Of a stretch of 64,000 nt of DNA, positions 36,779-46,119 are shown piece by piece (the first letter of the stretch is position 1; each line of letters opens with the position of its first letter). The notes beneath the pieces were generated by a model. The model made no database searches and was not told the DNA's origin. It saw nothing but the letters and a program-made list of their open reading frames with translations. Source of the DNA: Streptomyces celluloflavus (lineage in GTDB: Bacteria > Actinomycetota > Actinomycetes > Streptomycetales > Streptomycetaceae); NCBI GenBank assembly GCA_000720995.1, contig JOEL01000002.1:372001-436000 (forward strand). The letters run 5' to 3'. The position numbers and the translations under genes were made by a program.

Positions 36779-37423
36779 ATGGCCCGGGTACTGCTGACCG
36801 GATTCGAGCCCTTCGACGGCGAGTCCGTCAACCCCTCCTGGCTGGCGGTACGCGCCGCCGCGGCCGAGCCGCCCGCCGGCCTGGAGATCGTCACCGCCGA
36901 ACTGCCCTGCGTCTACGGCGCGGCCCGGGTGGCGCTGCGCACCGCCATCGAGGAGGCTCGCCCCGAGATCGTGGTGAGCGTCGGCCAGGCGGGCGGCCGC
37001 CCCGACATCACCGTCGAACGCGTCGCCGTGAACCTCGACGACGCCCGCATCCCGGACGTCGCCGGTGCCCGCCCGATAGACGAGCCGATCGTGCCCGGCG
37101 GCCCCGCCGCGTACTTCTCCACGCTGCCGGTCAAGGCGTGCGTGGCGGCCGTCCGCGCCGCCGGACTCCCGGCCTCCGTCTCCAACACCGCCGGCACCTT
37201 CGTCTGCAACCACGTCTTCTACGCCCTCGCCCATCTCATCGCCACCGAACTGCCCGGCGTGCGCGGCGGCTTCGTCCACGTCCCCTACGCCCCCGAACAG
37301 GTCCTGGACCGGGCCCGGCCGTCGCTGCCGGTCGCCGACGTCGCACGGGCCCTGCGGGAGATCGCCGCCACCGCCGCGCACACCCGTACCGACCTGCGGG
37401 TCGCCGAAGGGGCCACCCACTGA
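36779..37423 (+). CDS. pcp: Pyroglutamyl-peptidase I (pyrrolidone-carboxylate peptidase)
   Basis: 214 residues, normal for the family. The catalytic triad is visible: E80 in GQAGGRPDITVERVAVN, C143 in SNTAGTFVCNHVFY and H167 in GGFVHVPY. It removes N-terminal pyroglutamate from peptides, yielding the 5-oxoproline that the 5-oxoprolinases in this locus open to glutamate. It follows DUF979 after 20 nt with the ribosome site GAGGAGC, so it shares a transcript with the permease. The pathway is therefore peptide hydrolysis and uptake, then ring opening. Confidence 0.94.
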   Translation: MARVLLTGFEPFDGESVNPSWLAVRAAAAEPPAGLEIVTAELPCVYGAARVALRTAIEEARPEIVVSVGQAGGRPDITVERVAVNLDDARIPDVAGARPIDEPIVPGGPAAYFSTLPVKACVAAVRAAGLPASVSNTAGTFVCNHVFYALAHLIATELPGVRGGFVHVPYAPEQVLDRARPSLPVADVARALREIAATAAHTRTDLRVAEGATH

Positions 37424-37620
37424 GCGGTACGGGCACGGGGCCGGCCGAGCTCGCCGCGCCCCCCGTCCCCGGCCCCGCAGGTCCGTGGACCGGCCACCGC
37501 ACCGGACGCCTGCGCGCCCCCGAGCCGGCCCGCCGGCGTCCCACCGCGGACCGCACCGTAGACTGACGGACCGCCGACCGACGGCTCCGTCACACCGGGC
37601 GGTCCGTGCCGTTTCGTCCG

Positions 37621-37643
37621 TTGTCAGTGCGAGCGCCTACGCT
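37621..37643 (+). promoter_or_regulatory. RecA-NDp/PafBC-type DNA-damage promoter of the SMC operon
   Basis: TTGTCAGTG (37621-37629), an 8-nt spacer and TACGCT (37638-37643) match the published actinobacterial RecA-NDp consensus tTGTCRgtg-N8-TAnnnT at every defined position. The start codon GTG (37651) is 7 nt after the -10 box, the distance expected for a leaderless transcript starting at the codon itself. Confidence 0.7.
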
Positions 37644-37650
37644 GTGCGAC

Positions 37651-39174
37651 GTGACTTTTCCAGCCCCGGGGGCCGCCGCGCCCCAGCTCAACGGGCCCAC
37701 CCGGCCCGCGCCGGGCCCGGCCGCCGACGAAGGACTGGCCCGCCGGCTGCGCGCCCTCGCGTGCACCGCGCCGCTCCACGACCTTGATGTGCGCAAGGCC
37801 AACCTCGCGGGCGAGTACGGGATCTACGCGATGTCGGAGGTGGCGCTCGCCGTCATCGACCTCGTCACGCTCCACATGGACTTCGACACCGGCGCCGACC
37901 ACGAGGAAATAGTGGCCAGGGTGCTCCCGCGGATCGCCGCGCAGGCCCCGCGCCGCCCCGCGGGCGAGCACGAGCGGGTGGCCCGCTGGGTGCTGGAGAA
38001 CCTGATCAACGTCGGCAGCGTGGACCGCGGCTTCCGCGCCGTCTACGGCACCTTCGGCCCCGAGGGCGAGTACGTCCGCCGCGACTACGACTTCAAGCTC
38101 ATCGAGGAGGTCCCCGGCACCGGCGGCACCGTCTACCTTCGGGCCACCGACGAAGCGGTCAACGTCCTGGTCGGCGCCCTCGACACGGACGTCACCAGCG
38201 CCCAGATCGCCGCCGAGGTCAAGCTGGAGGTGCTGATCAGACGCGGCCGGCTGGCCGACGCCCAGCTCGCCGCCGAGCAGGCCCGCTACCGCACCGTGCA
38301 GTACGCCGAGACCCTCCGCCGGACCCTGGACGCCACCCGGCGCAACGTCCGCGCCGTCGACTGGCTGCACGCCGTCCCCGACATGATCGCCGAGGCGCTG
38401 GAGCACGTCGCGGACCGCTACCGCCACGAGAACGCCATCCTCACCAACATCCGCAAGGCCCGCGACGAGACCGAGGAGCCCGAGCACAAGCGGCGCGCCG
38501 CCGAGCTGGTCGACATCGTCAAGGACTGCATCCGCCGGCACACCCAGCTCCAGTCCCGGCTGCTGGAGGCCGGACCGCTCTTCCGCGCCGAACAGGACCG
38601 GCAGGCGTTCGCCACCCCCGCCGCCGGCCTCGGCCTCGACCTCTACGGTCAGCTCGTCGCCCCGCTGCTGCCCCTCCCCGCCGAGCGCGCCATCCGCGTC
38701 ACCGACGCGTTCTTCGCCCGCGGCACGGGCCTGCGCACCCCCTCGGCCGTCCGCGTCGGCGACCTCGTCGAGATGCTGCTCACCCCGCCCCTGGAGCGCG
38801 AGCACCTCGGCGCCGAGATGCCCGAGCCCGACCTGGTGGCGACGCCCGACGACAGCCGCTTCAGCGAACAGCAGCTGGACGCCGCGATGGAACTCCTCGA
38901 CCTGCCCGCCGACGCCCCCCGCCGGCTCTCCGGGCTGCTCGCCGACGCCCGCCGCTCGGACCCCGAACTCCCCTACCTCGTCGCCCTCCTGGCGGTGCAC
39001 GCCGCCAGCCCCCCGGTCGGCACCGCCTACCGCCAGGGCGAGCAGCAGCTGCTCTTCGCCGTCGACGACGGCACCGAGCTGGCCGACCCGGAGTTCGGCG
39101 GCGCCGACCTCATCGTCGGCAAGGCCCTGCTGGACGCGGCCGGGATGGCCGCCGACCGCTCGGAGGTGGCCTGA
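37651..39174 (+). CDS. Kleisin-like subunit of a MukBEF/Wadjet-type SMC complex (MksF/JetA-like)
   Basis: 507 residues. After a Pro/Ala-rich start, residues ~25-110 form a helical/winged-helix head (EYGIYAMSEVALAVIDLVTLHMDF). Next comes a segment with the kleisin-typical pattern VYLRATDEAVNVLVGALDTDVTSAQIAAEVKLEVLIRRGRLADAQLAAEQA (shown in pieces, ~165-215) that mirrors MukF/MksF/JetA proteins, a helical bundle (215-310) and an acidic C-terminal region. The GTG at 37651 is taken as a leaderless start. It is followed by a 311-residue small subunit and a 1587-residue SMC ATPase, the A-B-C order of Wadjet and MksFEB operons. Identity as kleisin is by order, size and pattern and would need a profile search. 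Confidence 0.65.
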   Translation: MTFPAPGAAAPQLNGPTRPAPGPAADEGLARRLRALACTAPLHDLDVRKANLAGEYGIYAMSEVALAVIDLVTLHMDFDTGADHEEIVARVLPRIAAQAPRRPAGEHERVARWVLENLINVGSVDRGFRAVYGTFGPEGEYVRRDYDFKLIEEVPGTGGTVYLRATDEAVNVLVGALDTDVTSAQIAAEVKLEVLIRRGRLADAQLAAEQARYRTVQYAETLRRTLDATRRNVRAVDWLHAVPDMIAEALEHVADRYRHENAILTNIRKARDETEEPEHKRRAAELVDIVKDCIRRHTQLQSRLLEAGPLFRAEQDRQAFATPAAGLGLDLYGQLVAPLLPLPAERAIRVTDAFFARGTGLRTPSAVRVGDLVEMLLTPPLEREHLGAEMPEPDLVATPDDSRFSEQQLDAAMELLDLPADAPRRLSGLLADARRSDPELPYLVALLAVHAASPPVGTAYRQGEQQLLFAVDDGTELADPEFGGADLIVGKALLDAAGMAADRSEVA

Positions 39175-39256
39175 TGCCCCGACGATCCCGCGTACGGCGC
39201 CCCGGCGCCCGCCACCGCCAACCGGCCGCCCCCACCCCCCACAAGGAGCTCCAACC

Positions 39257-40192
39257 GTGACCGAGTACGACGCCGCCGACCCGGCACCGCCGGAGCCGTC
39301 CGCCGCGGGCGAGGCGGCGGGCCGGCCGGTGCCCGCCGACGAGACGCCGGGCCCGGCGGGACCCGCGCCGGTCACCCCGGCCGACGCCGCGGACGCCGCA
39401 CGGCTGGTCTCCTTCGGACTCCAGCCCAAACTGCTGCCCGCCCGCGACGCCGAATACGCCGAGCTGCTGCGCCGCTACCGCGACGAGCCCGCCTTCGCCC
39501 GGCTGAGCGACGCGGTCGCCACCGGCCTCGGCCTGGTCGTCCTGGAGGTGTCCACCCGCGCCGGGATGGCCGTCACCGCCGCCGAGGACTCCGTCTTCGC
39601 CGTCCGGATGGGCGACTACGCCCGCCGCGCCTCCGCCGACTCCGCCGACCGCTTCCTGCACGGTCTGGCCCATCTGGCCGTCGCCGCGCTGGCGTTCCCG
39701 CGCCCCGAGGACCTCGCCGACGACGGCTACATCGGCCGGATCACCGTCAACGGCGTCGACGCCTTCGTCCGCCAGGCGTGCCGCCGCCTGGAGGAGCGCG
39801 CCGAGCAGGACGGCGAGAACACCGACCCGGCCACCGGCGCCCCCGGCCTGGAGTCGGCCTGGCGGGTCTACGCCCGGCGCAGCGCGACGGGCGCCACCAA
39901 GGACGCCCGGCGGCTGGCCGGTTCGACCACCGGCATCATCGCCAAGGCCGTCACCTTCCTCGTCGACTCCGGCTTCCTGCAACGCACCGGCGACGACGCC
40001 GGCGGCGCCTACCGCACCACCGCCCGCTACCAACTCCAGGTCCGCGACCTGGCCGGCGGCGCCGCCATGGCCGAACTGCTGGAGCTGGGCATCGTCCCCG
40101 TCACCGACGGCAGCGCCGCCCTGCTGCCCGGCGAGGACACCGACGACCTCGACCTGGTCGCCGAGGCCGGGCTCCCCTTCCACTCCGCCTGA
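39257..40192 (+). CDS. Small accessory subunit of the SMC complex (MksE/JetB-like)
   Basis: 311 residues. A Pro/Ala/Glu-rich disordered stretch (1-45) precedes a helical domain with LVSFGLQPKLLPARDAEYAELLRRYRDEPAFARLSDAVATGLGLVVLEVSTRAG (in pieces) and a winged-helix-like C-terminal part (AKAVTFLVDSGFLQRTGDDAGGAYRTTARYQLQVRDLAG). MukE/MksE/JetB subunits are tandem winged-helix proteins that bind the kleisin; the C-terminal pattern of helix, 'GFL' turn and beta-wing fits. The GTG start at 39257 has AAGGAGC upstream. It lies between kleisin and SMC genes with gaps of 82 and 64 nt. No named family is recognised directly. Confidence 0.6.
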   Translation: MTEYDAADPAPPEPSAAGEAAGRPVPADETPGPAGPAPVTPADAADAARLVSFGLQPKLLPARDAEYAELLRRYRDEPAFARLSDAVATGLGLVVLEVSTRAGMAVTAAEDSVFAVRMGDYARRASADSADRFLHGLAHLAVAALAFPRPEDLADDGYIGRITVNGVDAFVRQACRRLEERAEQDGENTDPATGAPGLESAWRVYARRSATGATKDARRLAGSTTGIIAKAVTFLVDSGFLQRTGDDAGGAYRTTARYQLQVRDLAGGAAMAELLELGIVPVTDGSAALLPGEDTDDLDLVAEAGLPFHSA

Positions 40193-40256
40193 CCTCCGCC
40201 GGCCCCGCCCGCCGGCCACCGCCCGACACCACACGACACGACAACGAGAGTCCGCC

Positions 40257-43200
40257 ATGTACGAGCTGTCCAGGGTCCGCCTCTACTCCATCGGACCCGC
40301 CGGTGCGCGCTATGCCGACACCGTGCTGGACCTGCGCGGAGTCGGCGCGCCCGTACCCCGGCCGGCCCCGGCCCAGGCGGACTTCTTCGAGGACGAACCG
40401 GTCGGCCCGCCGCGCCGCCCGGCCCCCGCGGGCGTCCTCTTCCTGGAGAACGGCGGCGGCAAGTCCGTCCTGCTCAAGCTGATCTTCTCGGTGATGCTGC
40501 CCGGCCACCGCAACACCCTCGGCGGCGCCAGCTCCGGCGTCCTGCGCAAGTTCCTGCTCGCCGACGACTGCGGCCATGTCGCCCTGGAATGGCAGCACGT
40601 CCTCACCGGTGAGAGCGTCGTCGTCGGCAAGGTCAGCGAATGGCGCGGCCGGCAGGTCTCCAACGACCCCCGGAAGTTCGCCGAAGCCTGGTACAGCTTC
40701 CGACCGGGCCCCGGGATGAGCCTGGACTCCCTCCCCGTCGCCGAGGCCACCGTCGTCCGGCCCCGCCGGGAGAGCGGCGAGGGCGCCTCCGGCGCCCAGG
40801 GCCGCCGCCGCACGATGAAGGGCTTCCGCGACGTCCTCACCGAAGCCGGCAAGAACTACCCCAATCTCGACGTCGTCTGGGAAGAGATCCACGAACGCTG
40901 GAACGAACACCTCGGCGAGCTGGGCCTGGACCCCGAACTCTTCCGCTACCAGCGGGAGATGAACGCCGACGAGGGCGAGGCCGCCGGCCTGTTCGCGGTC
41001 AAGAACGACTCCGACTTCACCGACCTGCTGCTGCGCGCCGTCACCGACACCCGCGACACCGACGGCCTCGCCGACCTCGTCCACGGCTTCGCGCACAAGC
41101 TCGGCCGGCGCGCCGAACTCACCGCGGAGCGGGACTTCACCGCCGGCTCCCTCGACCTGCTGGCGCGTATCGCCGACGCCGCCGAGCAGCGCGAACGCGC
41201 CCGTGAGGTGCACACGGGCGCCGAACGGCGCACCCGCGGCCTCGCCCGGCGGCTGCACGCCCGCGGCACCGAGGAGCACGGCCGGGCCGCCGAACTCGCC
41301 GAACAGGTCGCCACCGCCGCGCACCGCGTCACCGACGCCGCGGACACCCGGGACCGCCGCGCCCTGGTCTCCGCCGAACTCGCCTACCGGCACGCCTCGC
41401 TGGCGCTGACCGCCGCCGAGAAGGGCGCCGCCGCCCAGCGCCGCGAACTCAACGACGCCCGCACGCTGCACAGCGCCTGGCAGGCCGCCGAGATCGCGCT
41501 GCGCCACCGCGCCGCCGCCGACCGCTCCACCCGCGTCGCCGCCGCCATCCGCGAGGCCGAACGGGACGCCGCCCCGGCGCTCGCCGCCCGCGCCACCGCC
41601 GCCGCCGACCTCGTCCGCGCCCTGCACACCGCCGCCGAGGCGGGCGAGCGGATCGCGGGCGAGGAGGAGGAGCGCTCCGCGGCACTCCAGGAGGCCGCCG
41701 AATCGGCGCACCGCGACGCCACCGCCGCCGCCACCCAGGCCCAGCGCGCCCGCAGCGAGACCGGACACCTCAAGCAGCGGCTCGCCGAGGTGGCCCAGGA
41801 GACCACCGAGGCCGTCGCGGCGGGCTGGCTGGACGACACCGCCCCGGACGCCGATCCGGCCCGCGCCGCGCTCGCCGCCTCGGACGCCGAGAAGAGCGCC
41901 GTCGCGATCTGGGACACGGCCCGCGAGGCGGCCCGGGAAGCCACCGACCGCGCCCGGGAGGCCACCGCGCGGCACTCCGCCGCGGAGCTGGCGGCGGCCC
42001 GCGCCGAGGACGCCGCCCAGGCCGCGGAGGGCGCCCATGACGCGGAACGCCGCGCCGCCGAATCGATCGGCGCCGAGCAGCGGCTCGCCGACCTCCTCGG
42101 CCTCCCCGAGGACCGGGCCCGCACCATCGGCCTGCCCGGCCCCCGGACGGCCACCGGCCAGGAACGCGAGGCGGTCCCCGCGGCCCCGCCCCGCCCCGCC
42201 GCCGGCCCGCTCACCGCCGAGGAACTGGACCGCAACGCCGACGCGCTGCACGAACTGCTCGACGAGGGCGTCGCCGCCGCCGAACGCCAGCTCTTCGACC
42301 TGCGCACCGCCGCCGCGGACGACTCCCGCATCCTCGGCGCGCTGGGCGACGGCGGACTGCTGCCCCCCGGCCCCGATGTGCTGGCCGCCGTCGAATACCT
42401 CGGCGAGCACGGCGTCCCCGCACTGCCCGGCTGGCGCTACCTCGCCCAGTCCGTCGATCCCGCCGACCACAACCGGGTGCTCGCCGCCCGCCCCGAACTC
42501 GTCGACGGCGTGATCATCACCGACCCCGACACCCACGCACGGGCCCGCGAGGTCCTCGGCCGGGCCGCGCTGCTGCCCCGCTCCGCCGTCGCCGTCGGCA
42601 CCGCCGCCGCCCTGCTCGCCCCCACCCCCGCCCCCGACGGCCGGGACACCGGCGTCTTCCTCGTCCCGCCCAACCCGGCGATGCACGACGAATCCGCCGC
42701 CGATGAGGAGCGCCAGGCGCTGCGGGCCCGCGCCATGCGGCGCGACGACGAGATCCGGGCGCTCGCCGCCCGCCTCGCCGGGGACCGCGCGCTGGCCGCC
42801 CGGCTCGCCTCCTGGCGCACCGGCTGCCCGGCCGGGCGGCTCGCCGAGCTGGCCGCCGCCGCGGCGCGCACCCGCACGGCCGCCGACACCGCGGCCGCCG
42901 AGCTGGCCGAGGCCCGTACGGTCCGCGCCGAGGCCGACGAGGTCGCGGCGGAGGCCACCCGGGTGCGCGACGAGCGGCAGGAGGCGGCGCAGCGCGCCCG
43001 CCGCGCCGCGGACATCCTGGCCGGGCTCGCCCACCGGCTGCGCGAGCGTGCCGGCTGGCAGTCCCGGATGCGGGAACTCGCCGACGAGAGCGCCGAGTTC
43101 GAGGCCCGCGCCGAGGAGTGCGTGGACCGCGCACGGGCCGCCGACGAGGACCGCAGAGCCGCCCAGCGGGCCGCCGACGACGCCCGCCGCACCGCCCGCG

Positions 43201-45020
43201 CGCTGCGCGCCGAGCGCGCCGAGATCGCCGGCGTCCCCGACGACCTGGGCGCCGCCCCCGAGGGCGCGACCACGTCCCTGCCCGCCCTGCGCGAGGCGTA
43301 CCGCGCCGCCTCCCAGCTCTACGAGAAGGTCGGCGTCGGCGCCGACCTGCGCGCCGAACAGGCCCGCGCCGAGGGCGAGGAGAGCGCCGCCCTGGCCGAG
43401 CTGAACCGCCTCACCAACAAGGTCCGCACCCGCGCCGAAGGGCTCCTGCAGAGCCCGGACGCCGCCGACGGCCCGTCCCGGCAGGCCGCCGCGGCGCGCG
43501 CCGAATCGCTCGTCCACATGCTGGAGACCCGCGCCTCGACCGCCAGCGAGCAACTGGGCCGGCTGCGCGGTGAGGCCGAGCGGCTCGCCCCCACCGACGG
43601 CGACGCGCACACCGAACTGCCCGCCGACCTGATCCCCGCGGACGCCGGCCGGGCCAAGGAACTCCTGCGCAGCGCGGGCGGCGAACTGGCCACCGCCACC
43701 GACGCGCTGGACGCCGCCCGCGCCCGGCACGAAGAGCTGCTGCGCGGCCACCGCGCCGCCGAGGACGCGGCCGGCGGCTTCGAGGAGAGCGCCGCCCTGC
43801 TGCGCGATCTGCTGCGCGACCACCACGACGCCGAGGACCCGGCGGGCGAGCAGCCCGAGCCGTACGCCGGCGGGCTGGCGGAGGCCCGGCACGCCGCCGC
43901 CGAGTCCCGCCGCTCGCTGCGCGGCTGCGCCGCCGACCTGTCGGCCGCCGAGGCCGCGGTGCGCGAGGCGGGCGACGTCCTGGTACGGCACGCCAACTCC
44001 ACCCGCTACGAACAGGTACGCACCCCCGCCCGGCAGCAGATCCGCGAACTGCCCGCCGCCGCGCTCCCGGACCACGCGGCCAAGTGGGCGGAGGCGTTCG
44101 CGCCCCGGCTGCGGGTACTGACCGACGAGCTGGCGCAGCTGGAGCGCAACCGCGACAGCATCGTCGACCGGCTCCGCGGCCTGGTCGAGTCGTCGCTGAC
44201 CACGCTGCGCTCGGCGCAGCGGCTGTCCCGGCTGCCCGAGGGGCTGGGGGAATGGTCGGGGCAGGAGTTCCTGCGGATCCGCTTCGAGGACCCGGACCAG
44301 GCCACCCTCGCCGAGCGGCTCGGCGAGGTCATCGACGAGGCGACCCGTTCGGCGGTCAAGAAGAACAGCGATCTGCGGCGGGACGGGATGTCGCTGCTGC
44401 TGCGCGGGGTCGCCGCCGCGCTCCTGCCGCGCGGGGTGGCCGTGGAGATCCTCAAGCCGGACGCGGTGCTGCGCGCCGAGCGGGTGCCGGTCGGGCAAAT
44501 GGGCGACGTCTTCTCCGGCGGCCAGCTGCTGACCGCCGCCATCGCCCTGTACTGCACGATGGCGGCGCTGCGCAGCAACGACCGGGGCCGCGACAAGCAG
44601 CGGCACGCCGGCACGCTGTTCCTCGACAACCCCATCGGCCGCGCCAACGCCACCTATCTGCTGGAGCTCCAGCGGGCCGTCGCCGACGCCCTCGGCGTCC
44701 AGCTGCTCTACACCACCGGCCTCTTCGACACCACCGCGCTCGCCGAGTTCCCGCTGGTCATCCGGTTGCGCAACGACGCGGACCTGCGGGCCGGGCTGAA
44801 GTACATCAGCGTCGAGGAGCATCTGCGGCCCGGTCTGCCGCAGCAGGACCCGGCCGGGGAGCCGGTGCACGGCCAGATCACGGCGACGCGGATGTACCGC
44901 CGTCCGGAAGAGCCCCCGCAGCCGCCGGCCCGGTCCGCGGACGCTCCGGAGGGGACGGCGGACGGTGCCCCGGCTCCGGCTCCGGCTCCGGCTGCCCCTG
45001 CGGACGGAGCCGCCCGGTGA
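40257..45020 (+). CDS. SMC-like ATPase with coiled-coil arms (MukB/MksB/JetC-like)
   Basis: 1587 residues with the SMC plan. The N-terminal head has a P-loop FLENGGGKSVLLKL (K69). Two long coiled coils (~320-680 and ~815-1380) flank a globular hinge (~690-810: PDVLAAVEYLGEHGVPALPGWRYLAQS...VDGVIITDP...FLVPPNPAMHD). The C-terminal head has the ABC signature VFSGGQLL (1418-1425) and a Walker B TLFLDNPIGRAN (D1457). Two departures stand out: the first Walker A glycine is Leu, and the acidic residue after the Walker B Asp is Asn (D-N, not D-E). No zinc hook (CxxC) is seen, unlike Rad50/SbcC. It is the third gene of the kleisin/small-subunit/SMC operon; no JetD/MksG nuclease follows. Its last 143 bp overlap the convergent oxygenase gene. 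Confidence 0.82.
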   Translation: MYELSRVRLYSIGPAGARYADTVLDLRGVGAPVPRPAPAQADFFEDEPVGPPRRPAPAGVLFLENGGGKSVLLKLIFSVMLPGHRNTLGGASSGVLRKFLLADDCGHVALEWQHVLTGESVVVGKVSEWRGRQVSNDPRKFAEAWYSFRPGPGMSLDSLPVAEATVVRPRRESGEGASGAQGRRRTMKGFRDVLTEAGKNYPNLDVVWEEIHERWNEHLGELGLDPELFRYQREMNADEGEAAGLFAVKNDSDFTDLLLRAVTDTRDTDGLADLVHGFAHKLGRRAELTAERDFTAGSLDLLARIADAAEQRERAREVHTGAERRTRGLARRLHARGTEEHGRAAELAEQVATAAHRVTDAADTRDRRALVSAELAYRHASLALTAAEKGAAAQRRELNDARTLHSAWQAAEIALRHRAAADRSTRVAAAIREAERDAAPALAARATAAADLVRALHTAAEAGERIAGEEEERSAALQEAAESAHRDATAAATQAQRARSETGHLKQRLAEVAQETTEAVAAGWLDDTAPDADPARAALAASDAEKSAVAIWDTAREAAREATDRAREATARHSAAELAAARAEDAAQAAEGAHDAERRAAESIGAEQRLADLLGLPEDRARTIGLPGPRTATGQEREAVPAAPPRPAAGPLTAEELDRNADALHELLDEGVAAAERQLFDLRTAAADDSRILGALGDGGLLPPGPDVLAAVEYLGEHGVPALPGWRYLAQSVDPADHNRVLAARPELVDGVIITDPDTHARAREVLGRAALLPRSAVAVGTAAALLAPTPAPDGRDTGVFLVPPNPAMHDESAADEERQALRARAMRRDDEIRALAARLAGDRALAARLASWRTGCPAGRLAELAAAAARTRTAADTAAAELAEARTVRAEADEVAAEATRVRDERQEAAQRARRAADILAGLAHRLRERAGWQSRMRELADESAEFEARAEECVDRARAADEDRRAAQRAADDARRTARALRAERAEIAGVPDDLGAAPEGATTSLPALREAYRAASQLYEKVGVGADLRAEQARAEGEESAALAELNRLTNKVRTRAEGLLQSPDAADGPSRQAAAARAESLVHMLETRASTASEQLGRLRGEAERLAPTDGDAHTELPADLIPADAGRAKELLRSAGGELATATDALDAARARHEELLRGHRAAEDAAGGFEESAALLRDLLRDHHDAEDPAGEQPEPYAGGLAEARHAAAESRRSLRGCAADLSAAEAAVREAGDVLVRHANSTRYEQVRTPARQQIRELPAAALPDHAAKWAEAFAPRLRVLTDELAQLERNRDSIVDRLRGLVESSLTTLRSAQRLSRLPEGLGEWSGQEFLRIRFEDPDQATLAERLGEVIDEATRSAVKKNSDLRRDGMSLLLRGVAAALLPRGVAVEILKPDAVLRAERVPVGQMGDVFSGGQLLTAAIALYCTMAALRSNDRGRDKQRHAGTLFLDNPIGRANATYLLELQRAVADALGVQLLYTTGLFDTTALAEFPLVIRLRNDADLRAGLKYISVEEHLRPGLPQQDPAGEPVHGQITATRMYRRPEEPPQPPARSADAPEGTADGAPAPAPAPAAPADGAAR

Positions 45021-46119
45021 CCCACCGGTGGAACTCGCCGATGTGGTGCTCGGTGGGCACGAGCACCCCGCCGGCCCGGTAGGCCCGGGAGTCCATCGCG
45101 GGCTGGGTCCGCTCGCAGGCCGCGAAATCCTGCGCGTTGACGCGGTGGAAGAGCTCCACCGACCGGTCGAGGTCGGCACCGGAGGCGACGACGTCGGGTG
45201 CGTACAGCCAGTCGCAGTCGACGACGGTGCGGTCCGCGGCCATCGGGAACATCCGGTGCACGATCACATGGTCGGGCACGAGGTTGAGGAAGACCTGCGG
45301 GCGGACGGTGACGGCGTAGTAGCGGCGGTCCTGCTCCGCGGCGAGACCGGCGAGCGGAGCGAAGCCGTCACCGCCGTCGACGGTGAACCCCGTGACCTCG
45401 TCCGCGAACGCCGCGCCGTGCCCGACGAAGTACTGCACGGCGAAACCGTCCGCGAACTCCGGTAACACCTCGGTCAGTTCGGGGTGGATGGTCGCGCAGT
45501 GGTAGCACTCCATGAAGTTCTCGACGATCAGCTTCCAGTTGGCGGCCACGTCGTAGCGGATCCGCCGGCCGAGCGCGAGCCCGTCGACCGCGTAACGGGC
45601 CACGGCCGCCGGATCGCCCAGCCGCTCGGTGACCGCCGCGATCACCGTCTCCTCGAAGGAGGGCGGCTCCTCGGCCAGGCACACCCACACATAGCCCAGC
45701 CACTCCCGCAGCCGGACCGGCAGCAGCCCGCGCTCACCCGGGTCCACCCCCGGCATCCGCCGCAGGTTGGGTGCGGCGGTCAGCCGCCCGTCCAGGTCGT
45801 AGGTCCAGGCGTGGTACGGGCAGCGCAGCGCGCGCCCCGCCGCACCGGACTCCTCGGTGCACAGCCGGGCGCCGCGGTGCCGGCAGACGTTGAGGAACGC
45901 CCCGAAACCGCCCCGGTGGTTGCGGGTGACCAGCACGCTCTCCCGGCCCACCTGGACGGTACGGAACGCGCCGGGCCGCGCCAGGTCGGCCGCCCGGACC
46001 GCGCAGAACCACAGCGATTCGAAGATCCGCCGCTGCTCCTCGGCGAAGACACCGGGGTCGGTGTACATCCGCCCCGGCAGGGTGGCGAGCAGACCGGTGG
46101 ACTCGGGAGCGAGGGTCAT
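44878..46119 (-). CDS. Rieske-type oxygenase alpha subunit, probable glycine betaine monooxygenase
   Basis: 413 residues. The Rieske [2Fe-2S] ligands are C79, H81, C100 and H103; the mononuclear iron site is [15 protein letters not shown] (H207, H212). The fold matches GbcA/stachydrine-demethylase-type enzymes that oxidatively remove an N-methyl group, releasing formaldehyde. Context (sarcosine oxidase, dimethylglycine oxidase) favours glycine betaine to dimethylglycine. Leu219 is a TTA codon (45465-45463), predicting bldA dependence. The start overlaps the sarcosine oxidase stop by 4 bp. The C-terminal ~45 residues are a low-complexity Pro/Glu tail that overlaps antisense with the SMC gene's 3' end. 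No dedicated reductase is adjacent. Confidence 0.9.

Follow-up and report, generated by a model that had tools for sequence, protein, structure and literature searches.

A candidate PafBC-type DNA-damage promoter in front of a JetD-less relative of type III Wadjet in Streptomyces

The RecA-NDp promoter has the consensus tTGTCRgtg-N8-TAnnnT, which reportedly goes back to Gamulin et al. 2004. With PafBC, the sigma-A holoenzyme gains the use of promoters carrying a -26 motif by means of sigma adaptation, and single-stranded DNA is named as the activator (PMC11804915). In mycobacteria, recA and uvrC are targets of the RecA-NDp/PafBC regulon, and the promoter is said to extend to other Actinobacteria (both as stated in PMC8223512). 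As for Streptomyces, the relevant passages of Stratton et al. 2022 pose the existence of such a PafBC-type response as still to be shown, and mention an initial search by which the PafBC motif of M. smegmatis seemed not to be conserved in S. venezuelae (PMC9380542).

Among SMC complexes, Wadjet has been described as enriched in Actinobacteria and towards the ends of Streptomyces chromosomes, in counts which may or may not include operons of the type treated here (PMC10482375). MksBEF of Pseudomonas aeruginosa is described as acting without a nuclease (PMC10586767). MksBEFG of Corynebacterium glutamicum, like our operon, combines a kleisin, a KITE and an SMC subunit and comes from an actinobacterium; unlike our operon it has the nuclease MksG, and it acts in plasmid defence according to PMC10123090. 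Streptomyces SMC, another SMC complex, is the known condensin aligning the chromosome arms (PMC13121528), and this description sets it apart. In the open-access texts and excerpts consulted, neither a damage promoter on jetABC nor a core JetD-less Wadjet relative in Streptomyces was found. The parts of the system described below are already known; their combination seems to be new.

The operon lies in the window, i.e. the whole 64 kb stretch of DNA that was analysed, and its features are collected in Table 1.

Table 1. Features of the candidate promoter and of the jetABC operon, in window coordinates
Feature	Position	Strand	Basis
GCCGTTTCG block, -43 to -35 relative to GTG	37608..37616	+	conserved before jetA orthologues
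-26 element TTGTCAGTG of putative RecA-NDp/PafBC-type promoter	37621..37629	+	read directly, shuffles, genome-wide counts, orthologues
Spacer CGAGCGCC	37630-37637	+	read directly
-10 element TACGCT	37638..37643	+	read directly, orthologue conservation
GTGCGAC between -10 box and start codon	37644-37650	+	read directly
Plausible GTG start of jetA, 7 nt past -10 box	37651	+	read directly
jetA, type III Wadjet JetA, 507 aa, GTG start, probably leaderless	37651..39174	+	PADLOC JetA3, E 7.1e-186
jetB-position protein, 311 aa	39257..40192	+	position; 45% identity to same-place protein of C7 cluster
jetC, type III Wadjet SMC ATPase, 1587 aa	40257..45020	+	PADLOC JetC3, 1401.5 bits

An earlier note on this DNA had spoken of a condensin-like complex. 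In the sense of an ordinary condensin this description does not hold, since PADLOC assigns JetA3 and JetC3 and thereby rejects a generic condensin. A further type III Wadjet cluster, with all of jetABCD, lies on contig C7 (C7:1-16000) of the same genome; its A, B and C proteins are 49, 45 and 36% identical to those of the window, and its jetA has no damage motif upstream. From the PADLOC assignments and the identity to this complete cluster, the operon of the window is related to type III Wadjet, with which it also shares the gene order A-B-C and the ABC ATPase motifs. In the window JetC these are Walker A ENGGGKSV at residue 64, the signature FSGGQ at 1419 and Walker B LFLDNP at residues 1454-1459 (nucleotides 44616-44633). 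Of the 80 named core loci, which include incomplete ones, 74 showed Walker A, 69 the signature and 69 Walker B, and pairwise dN/dS was 0.12-0.31 in 11 gene comparisons. The Walker B motif of SMC ATPases usually reads D-E, the E being catalytic. In the window JetC it reads D-N, as in 14 of the 18 canonical clusters (several of them incomplete), and as this form is common to most nuclease-bearing relatives examined, ATPase activity of the window JetC is assumed. Searched against PDB sequences, JetC gave a sole match with E 0.19. The protein at the JetB position had no match in Pfam, NCBIfam or PADLOC up to E 1, a profile of 35 JetB sequences found no PDB match with an E value below 0.21, and an AlphaFold2 model from 23 core sequences (mean pLDDT 51.2) was too poor to use.

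The operon differs from type III Wadjet in the absence of JetD, the nuclease with which Wadjet cuts plasmids, from the operon itself and from the 64 kb window. A JetD hidden nearby was considered and rejected: tblastn with one JetD query detected none in the window and none among the 80 named core loci, of which several are incomplete. A profile built from 15 JetD proteins, which recovered all four held-out positives (L254, L285, L286 and L287), likewise detected none in the window, none in 69/69 core loci that contain the JetC end and at least 2 kb beyond it, and none in 6/6 loci of the second JetA-bearing family, f20. For f20, a JetD placed right after JetC was rejected as well, as a Pfam scan of one ORF from each of the six loci found no JetD. 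JetD was present in 15 of the 18 canonical clusters, and the other three (L255, L259, L261) are interrupted by contig ends. The fourth protein of the C7 cluster scored 21.9 bits against JetD_C as a whole ORF (cut-off 22) and 22.7 bits in the genome search. JetD_C was found in 16/121 genus genomes, a lower bound because type III JetD is poorly captured by the Pfam model, and in four more (G007, G022, G090, G094) JetD was found by tblastn only; in about 100 of the 121 no JetD was detected by either means. Without JetD, the window complex should not cut DNA. In having JetABC-type subunits without JetD/MksG it resembles MksBEF of P. aeruginosa (the JetB assignment resting here on position and identity only), from which it differs by its type III lineage, its occurrence in Actinomycetota and its putative DNA-damage promoter.

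As for this promoter, positions 37621-37643 of the + strand read TTGTCAGTG-N8-TACGCT, with CGAGCGCC as the N8 spacer. The earlier note had claimed that the motif fits tTGTCRgtg-N8-TAnnnT and that a GTG follows 7 nt past the -10 box, and the sequence at 37621-37651 is exactly so. TTGTCRGTG-N8-TANNNT matches exactly once in the 64 kb window and never in any of 100 dinucleotide shuffles. A sigma-70-like promoter, hence a canonical -35 box, was searched for in 37400-45500 and none was found, nor was an intrinsic terminator in the same interval; a LexA-like box was rejected, as GAAC-N4-GTTC does not occur in 37001-38000. The GTG at 37651 is a plausible start codon of jetA. In the window the frame is open further upstream, with GTG at 37606 and 37627 and TTG at 37621, so that by frame alone JetA could be longer. 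In 17/173 upstream regions of orthologues, a stop codon in frame falls between the 5' end of the motif and the start codon, so that JetA must begin later there. Among the canonical clusters, L255 and L256 also have a GTG 7 nt past the -10 box, and in L255 this GTG, behind an exact motif, is the only start codon in frame over the stretch checked; a stop codon of the same frame lies just ahead of it.

The motif belongs to a class that is over-represented in the genome. The exact pattern occurs 33 times in the 8.68 Mb, compared with 0 matches of the reversed pattern, and with up to one mismatch there are 115 matches versus 7 for the reversed control. All 150 family genomes drawn contain at least one exact match (control 0-2 matches per genome); genomes of the genera g2 and g5 have just 2-6, so the motif class is of unequal strength between genera. 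Downstream of each of the 33 sites a plausible ORF was taken, and 30 proteins were scanned with Pfam, jetA being the 31st and two sites (L004 and L148) being left out. Besides jetA, 10/33 sites precede genes of DNA repair or DNA processing: ruvC, uvrC, uvrB, recA, dnaX and genes for uracil-DNA glycosylase, O6-methylguanine methyltransferase, an AlkZ-like glycosylase, a UvrD-type helicase and an HNH nuclease. By these counts, which are not a formal enrichment statistic, the motif class is linked to DNA-repair genes in this genome. The remaining scanned targets are mixed (transporters, acetyltransferases, amine oxidase, folB, phoH, a WGR protein and several without Pfam match), and roughly two in three of the 33 sites stand before genes that either lack an evident role in repair or were left out of the scan. 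Short distances from -10 box to start codon recur at several sites, with 6 nt at uvrB and the methyltransferase gene and 7 nt at dnaX and the AlkZ-like glycosylase gene. Among the one-mismatch matches listed for this genome, only one differs at positions 8-9 of the motif, so these positions may matter. Many other one-mismatch sites combine TTGTCAGTG with CANNNT in place of TANNNT, which suggests either some tolerance in the -10 box or a separate class of sites.

Eleven WYL-domain matches were found in the genome, two of them adjacent on contig C18, where the gene order is pafA-FKBP-FKBP-pafB-pafC-tatA-tatC (names given by eye from the translations). Judged from these translations, PafB and PafC are encoded in the genome, with pafB-pafC near pafA. 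The likeness to the mycobacterial RecA-NDp/PafBC regulon comprises the -26 element, the spacer, the -10 pattern, the lack of a -35 box, recA and uvrC as targets, and pafBC near pafA. It differs in that an SMC operon is a target here and in that PafBC dependence in Streptomyces is only a prediction; the comparison covers the points just named. The enrichment of the motif in this genome and in the family supports the statement of PMC8223512 more than the suggestion made for S. venezuelae in PMC9380542.

Conservation in front of jetA orthologues, which the earlier note had proposed as a check, gave a mixed picture, the position being kept far more often than the exact sequence. NTGTC-N12-TANNNT lies 6-8 nt before the start codon in 184/186 core loci (exceptions L190 and L195), representing 169 distinct sites, and in 169/169 the start is in frame with JetA, with no intervening stop. 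The sample leans to near relatives, as it was made up of the 80 named loci with the best matches, the top loci from every genome search and 40 loci picked from 15 other genera; within the searched pattern, columns do not vary because the sites were selected by it. The site is present in 15/16 genera, the remaining one, g15, being represented by one genome (G134, locus L195). The exact TTGTC[AG]GTG is found in 56/169 distinct sites, NTGTC[AG]GAC in 63/169, and in the more distant f20 orthologues the motif is absent in 7/7; the window and its relatives L051-L060 keep it exactly. This loss of the exact motif weighs less because the GAC variant is itself enriched across the genus: TTGTCRGAC-N8-TANNNT occurs at least once in 118/121 genus genomes, controls being mostly 0, and it precedes an ORF containing ligA as well as a RecD2-type helicase gene (C12:61513-61535 and C50:44272-44294 in this genome; L271 and L274 are the ligA and RecD2-type helicase sites), in the latter case 6 nt before the ATG. 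For the assignment to the RecA-NDp/PafBC type, the over-represented class, the link to repair genes, the encoded PafB and PafC and the position kept across genera speak in favour; the exact motif in only a third or so of orthologous sites weighs against it and goes part of the way towards what the earlier note had named as a refutation, loss of the motif in orthologous promoters. Taken together, we consider it likely, with good confidence, that 37621-37651 acts as such a promoter.

Further upstream, the GCCGTTTCG block reaches up to 1.76 bits per column before jetA orthologues; in the sequence that lies 18-40 bases ahead of the motif, columns hold about 0.1-0.6 bits. It is peculiar to jetA promoters, the other motif sites of the same genome being without it, and this hints at a possible second regulatory site or additional regulator.

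A JetA orthologue is nearly universal in the genus sample (118/121 genomes), and a JetA match was obtained in 148/150 family genomes, genus g10 giving a weak match only. The best 80 named loci closest to the window JetA are all from Streptomyces, and among the rows of the JetA tree S. piniterrae is nearest to it. Outside the family, 13 of 15 genomes in the order search were without match and two had distant relatives only; the class search gave seven f20 genomes with 60-63% JetA matches and one further genome with a trivial match, and at least one f20 genome (G301) had no JetA match in it. Spread on plasmids or phages was rejected: five plasmid records had relatives, all below 60% identity, and phage records gave 0 matches. 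By its core status in the genus and by these plasmid and phage counts, the operon again departs from type III Wadjet. In the JetA tree, which has no fixed root and contains several long canonical branches, core and f20 sequences group together (99/96), separately from the canonical sequences. This fits a single loss of JetD or a nuclease-less ancestor.

Several other explanations have to be weighed. A chance match without function can be invoked for any reading of a motif, and nothing more speaks for it here; with the shuffles, the genome-wide control and the positional conservation against it, we regard it as very improbable. A different possibility is that the promoter is real and the operon nevertheless stands outside PafBC control, at least where a species carries the GAC variant, so that another activator, perhaps acting via GCCGTTTCG, or basal activity of the housekeeping sigma factor would drive it and the resemblance would be residual. 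The frequency of GAC among the distinct sites (63/169) and the conserved block further upstream, which of the compared sites only those of jetA have, would agree with this. The enrichment of the same variant in 118/121 genus genomes, with ligA and the RecD2-type helicase gene among the genes it precedes, argues the other way, as do the window and its relatives L051-L060 with their exact motif, and this alternative appears distinctly unlikely to us.

It might also be that the complex still serves in defence against plasmids or phages, either with a JetD-like or other nuclease supplied in trans or by a non-cleaving block, and that the damage promoter readies immunity when single-stranded DNA arises from invading DNA or conjugation. 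Some weight is lent to this by the promoter being found in canonical clusters of the same lineage as well: the exact motif lies upstream of JetA in 4/18 (L248, L250, L255, L260) and a one-mismatch motif in 4/18 more (L249, L252, L253, L256), with neither in ten, that of C7 included. At the motif density of the window's genome, and treating clusters as independent, the probability of at least four exact hits in 18 upstream windows is about 5e-10, the true value being larger because L248/L260 and L249/L250 are close relatives. Four plasmid-borne clusters were compared as well. In L286 and L287, TTGTCAGTG is retained together with a -10 box that departs from the consensus and ends 6 nt ahead of the annotated start; in L284 (Rhodococcus) a site with one mismatch sits 123 nt upstream, and L285 is without a site. 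From these counts the damage motif is recurrent in type III Wadjet clusters, not universal. Against a role in defence stands the presence of the operon in 118/121 genus genomes, unlike the sporadic occurrence of a defence system, together with the roughly 100 genus genomes in which no JetD was detected, the Pfam-based JetD count being a lower bound. On balance we hold this explanation to be unlikely.

We consider it reasonably probable that the operon encodes a damage-induced, PafBC-switched, nuclease-less SMC complex, related to Wadjet and acting on the chromosome; here we infer PafBC binding, induction, for which the earlier note named mitomycin, the leaderless start, the function of JetB and the chromosomal action. 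According to this model, 37621-37651 would be a PafBC-dependent, LexA-independent DNA-damage promoter giving rise to a leaderless or nearly leaderless jetABC transcript. Upon DNA damage, single-stranded DNA would activate PafB-PafC, which would allow the housekeeping RNA polymerase to use the -35-less promoter by sigma adaptation, and use of the promoter would supply more of the SMC complex related to type III Wadjet. The complex would most likely load on, extrude or tether the chromosome and might, by analogy with the nuclease-less MksBEF of Pseudomonas, help to hold together, compact or segregate chromosomes that are damaged or unfinished.

The genes predicted as targets of this response in the genome are recA, uvrB, uvrC, ruvC, dnaX and jetABC, which bears on the question, left open in the passages concerned of PMC9380542, of a RecA/LexA-independent damage response of PafBC type in Streptomyces. 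For the genus, the finding concerns a widespread SMC complex of which no description was found, and it points to a link between damage signalling and Wadjet-type immunity. It suggests that a former defence motor became a damage-induced chromosome tool. Whether type III Wadjet of actinomycetes has repeatedly been wired to PafBC as a sensor of single-stranded DNA, with the promoter on several plasmid-defence operons that have a nuclease and the nuclease-less branch of Streptomycetaceae representing a core, damage-induced SMC complex for genome maintenance, is in our estimate evenly balanced. If this is true, DNA-damage signalling and SMC immunity would share one switch.
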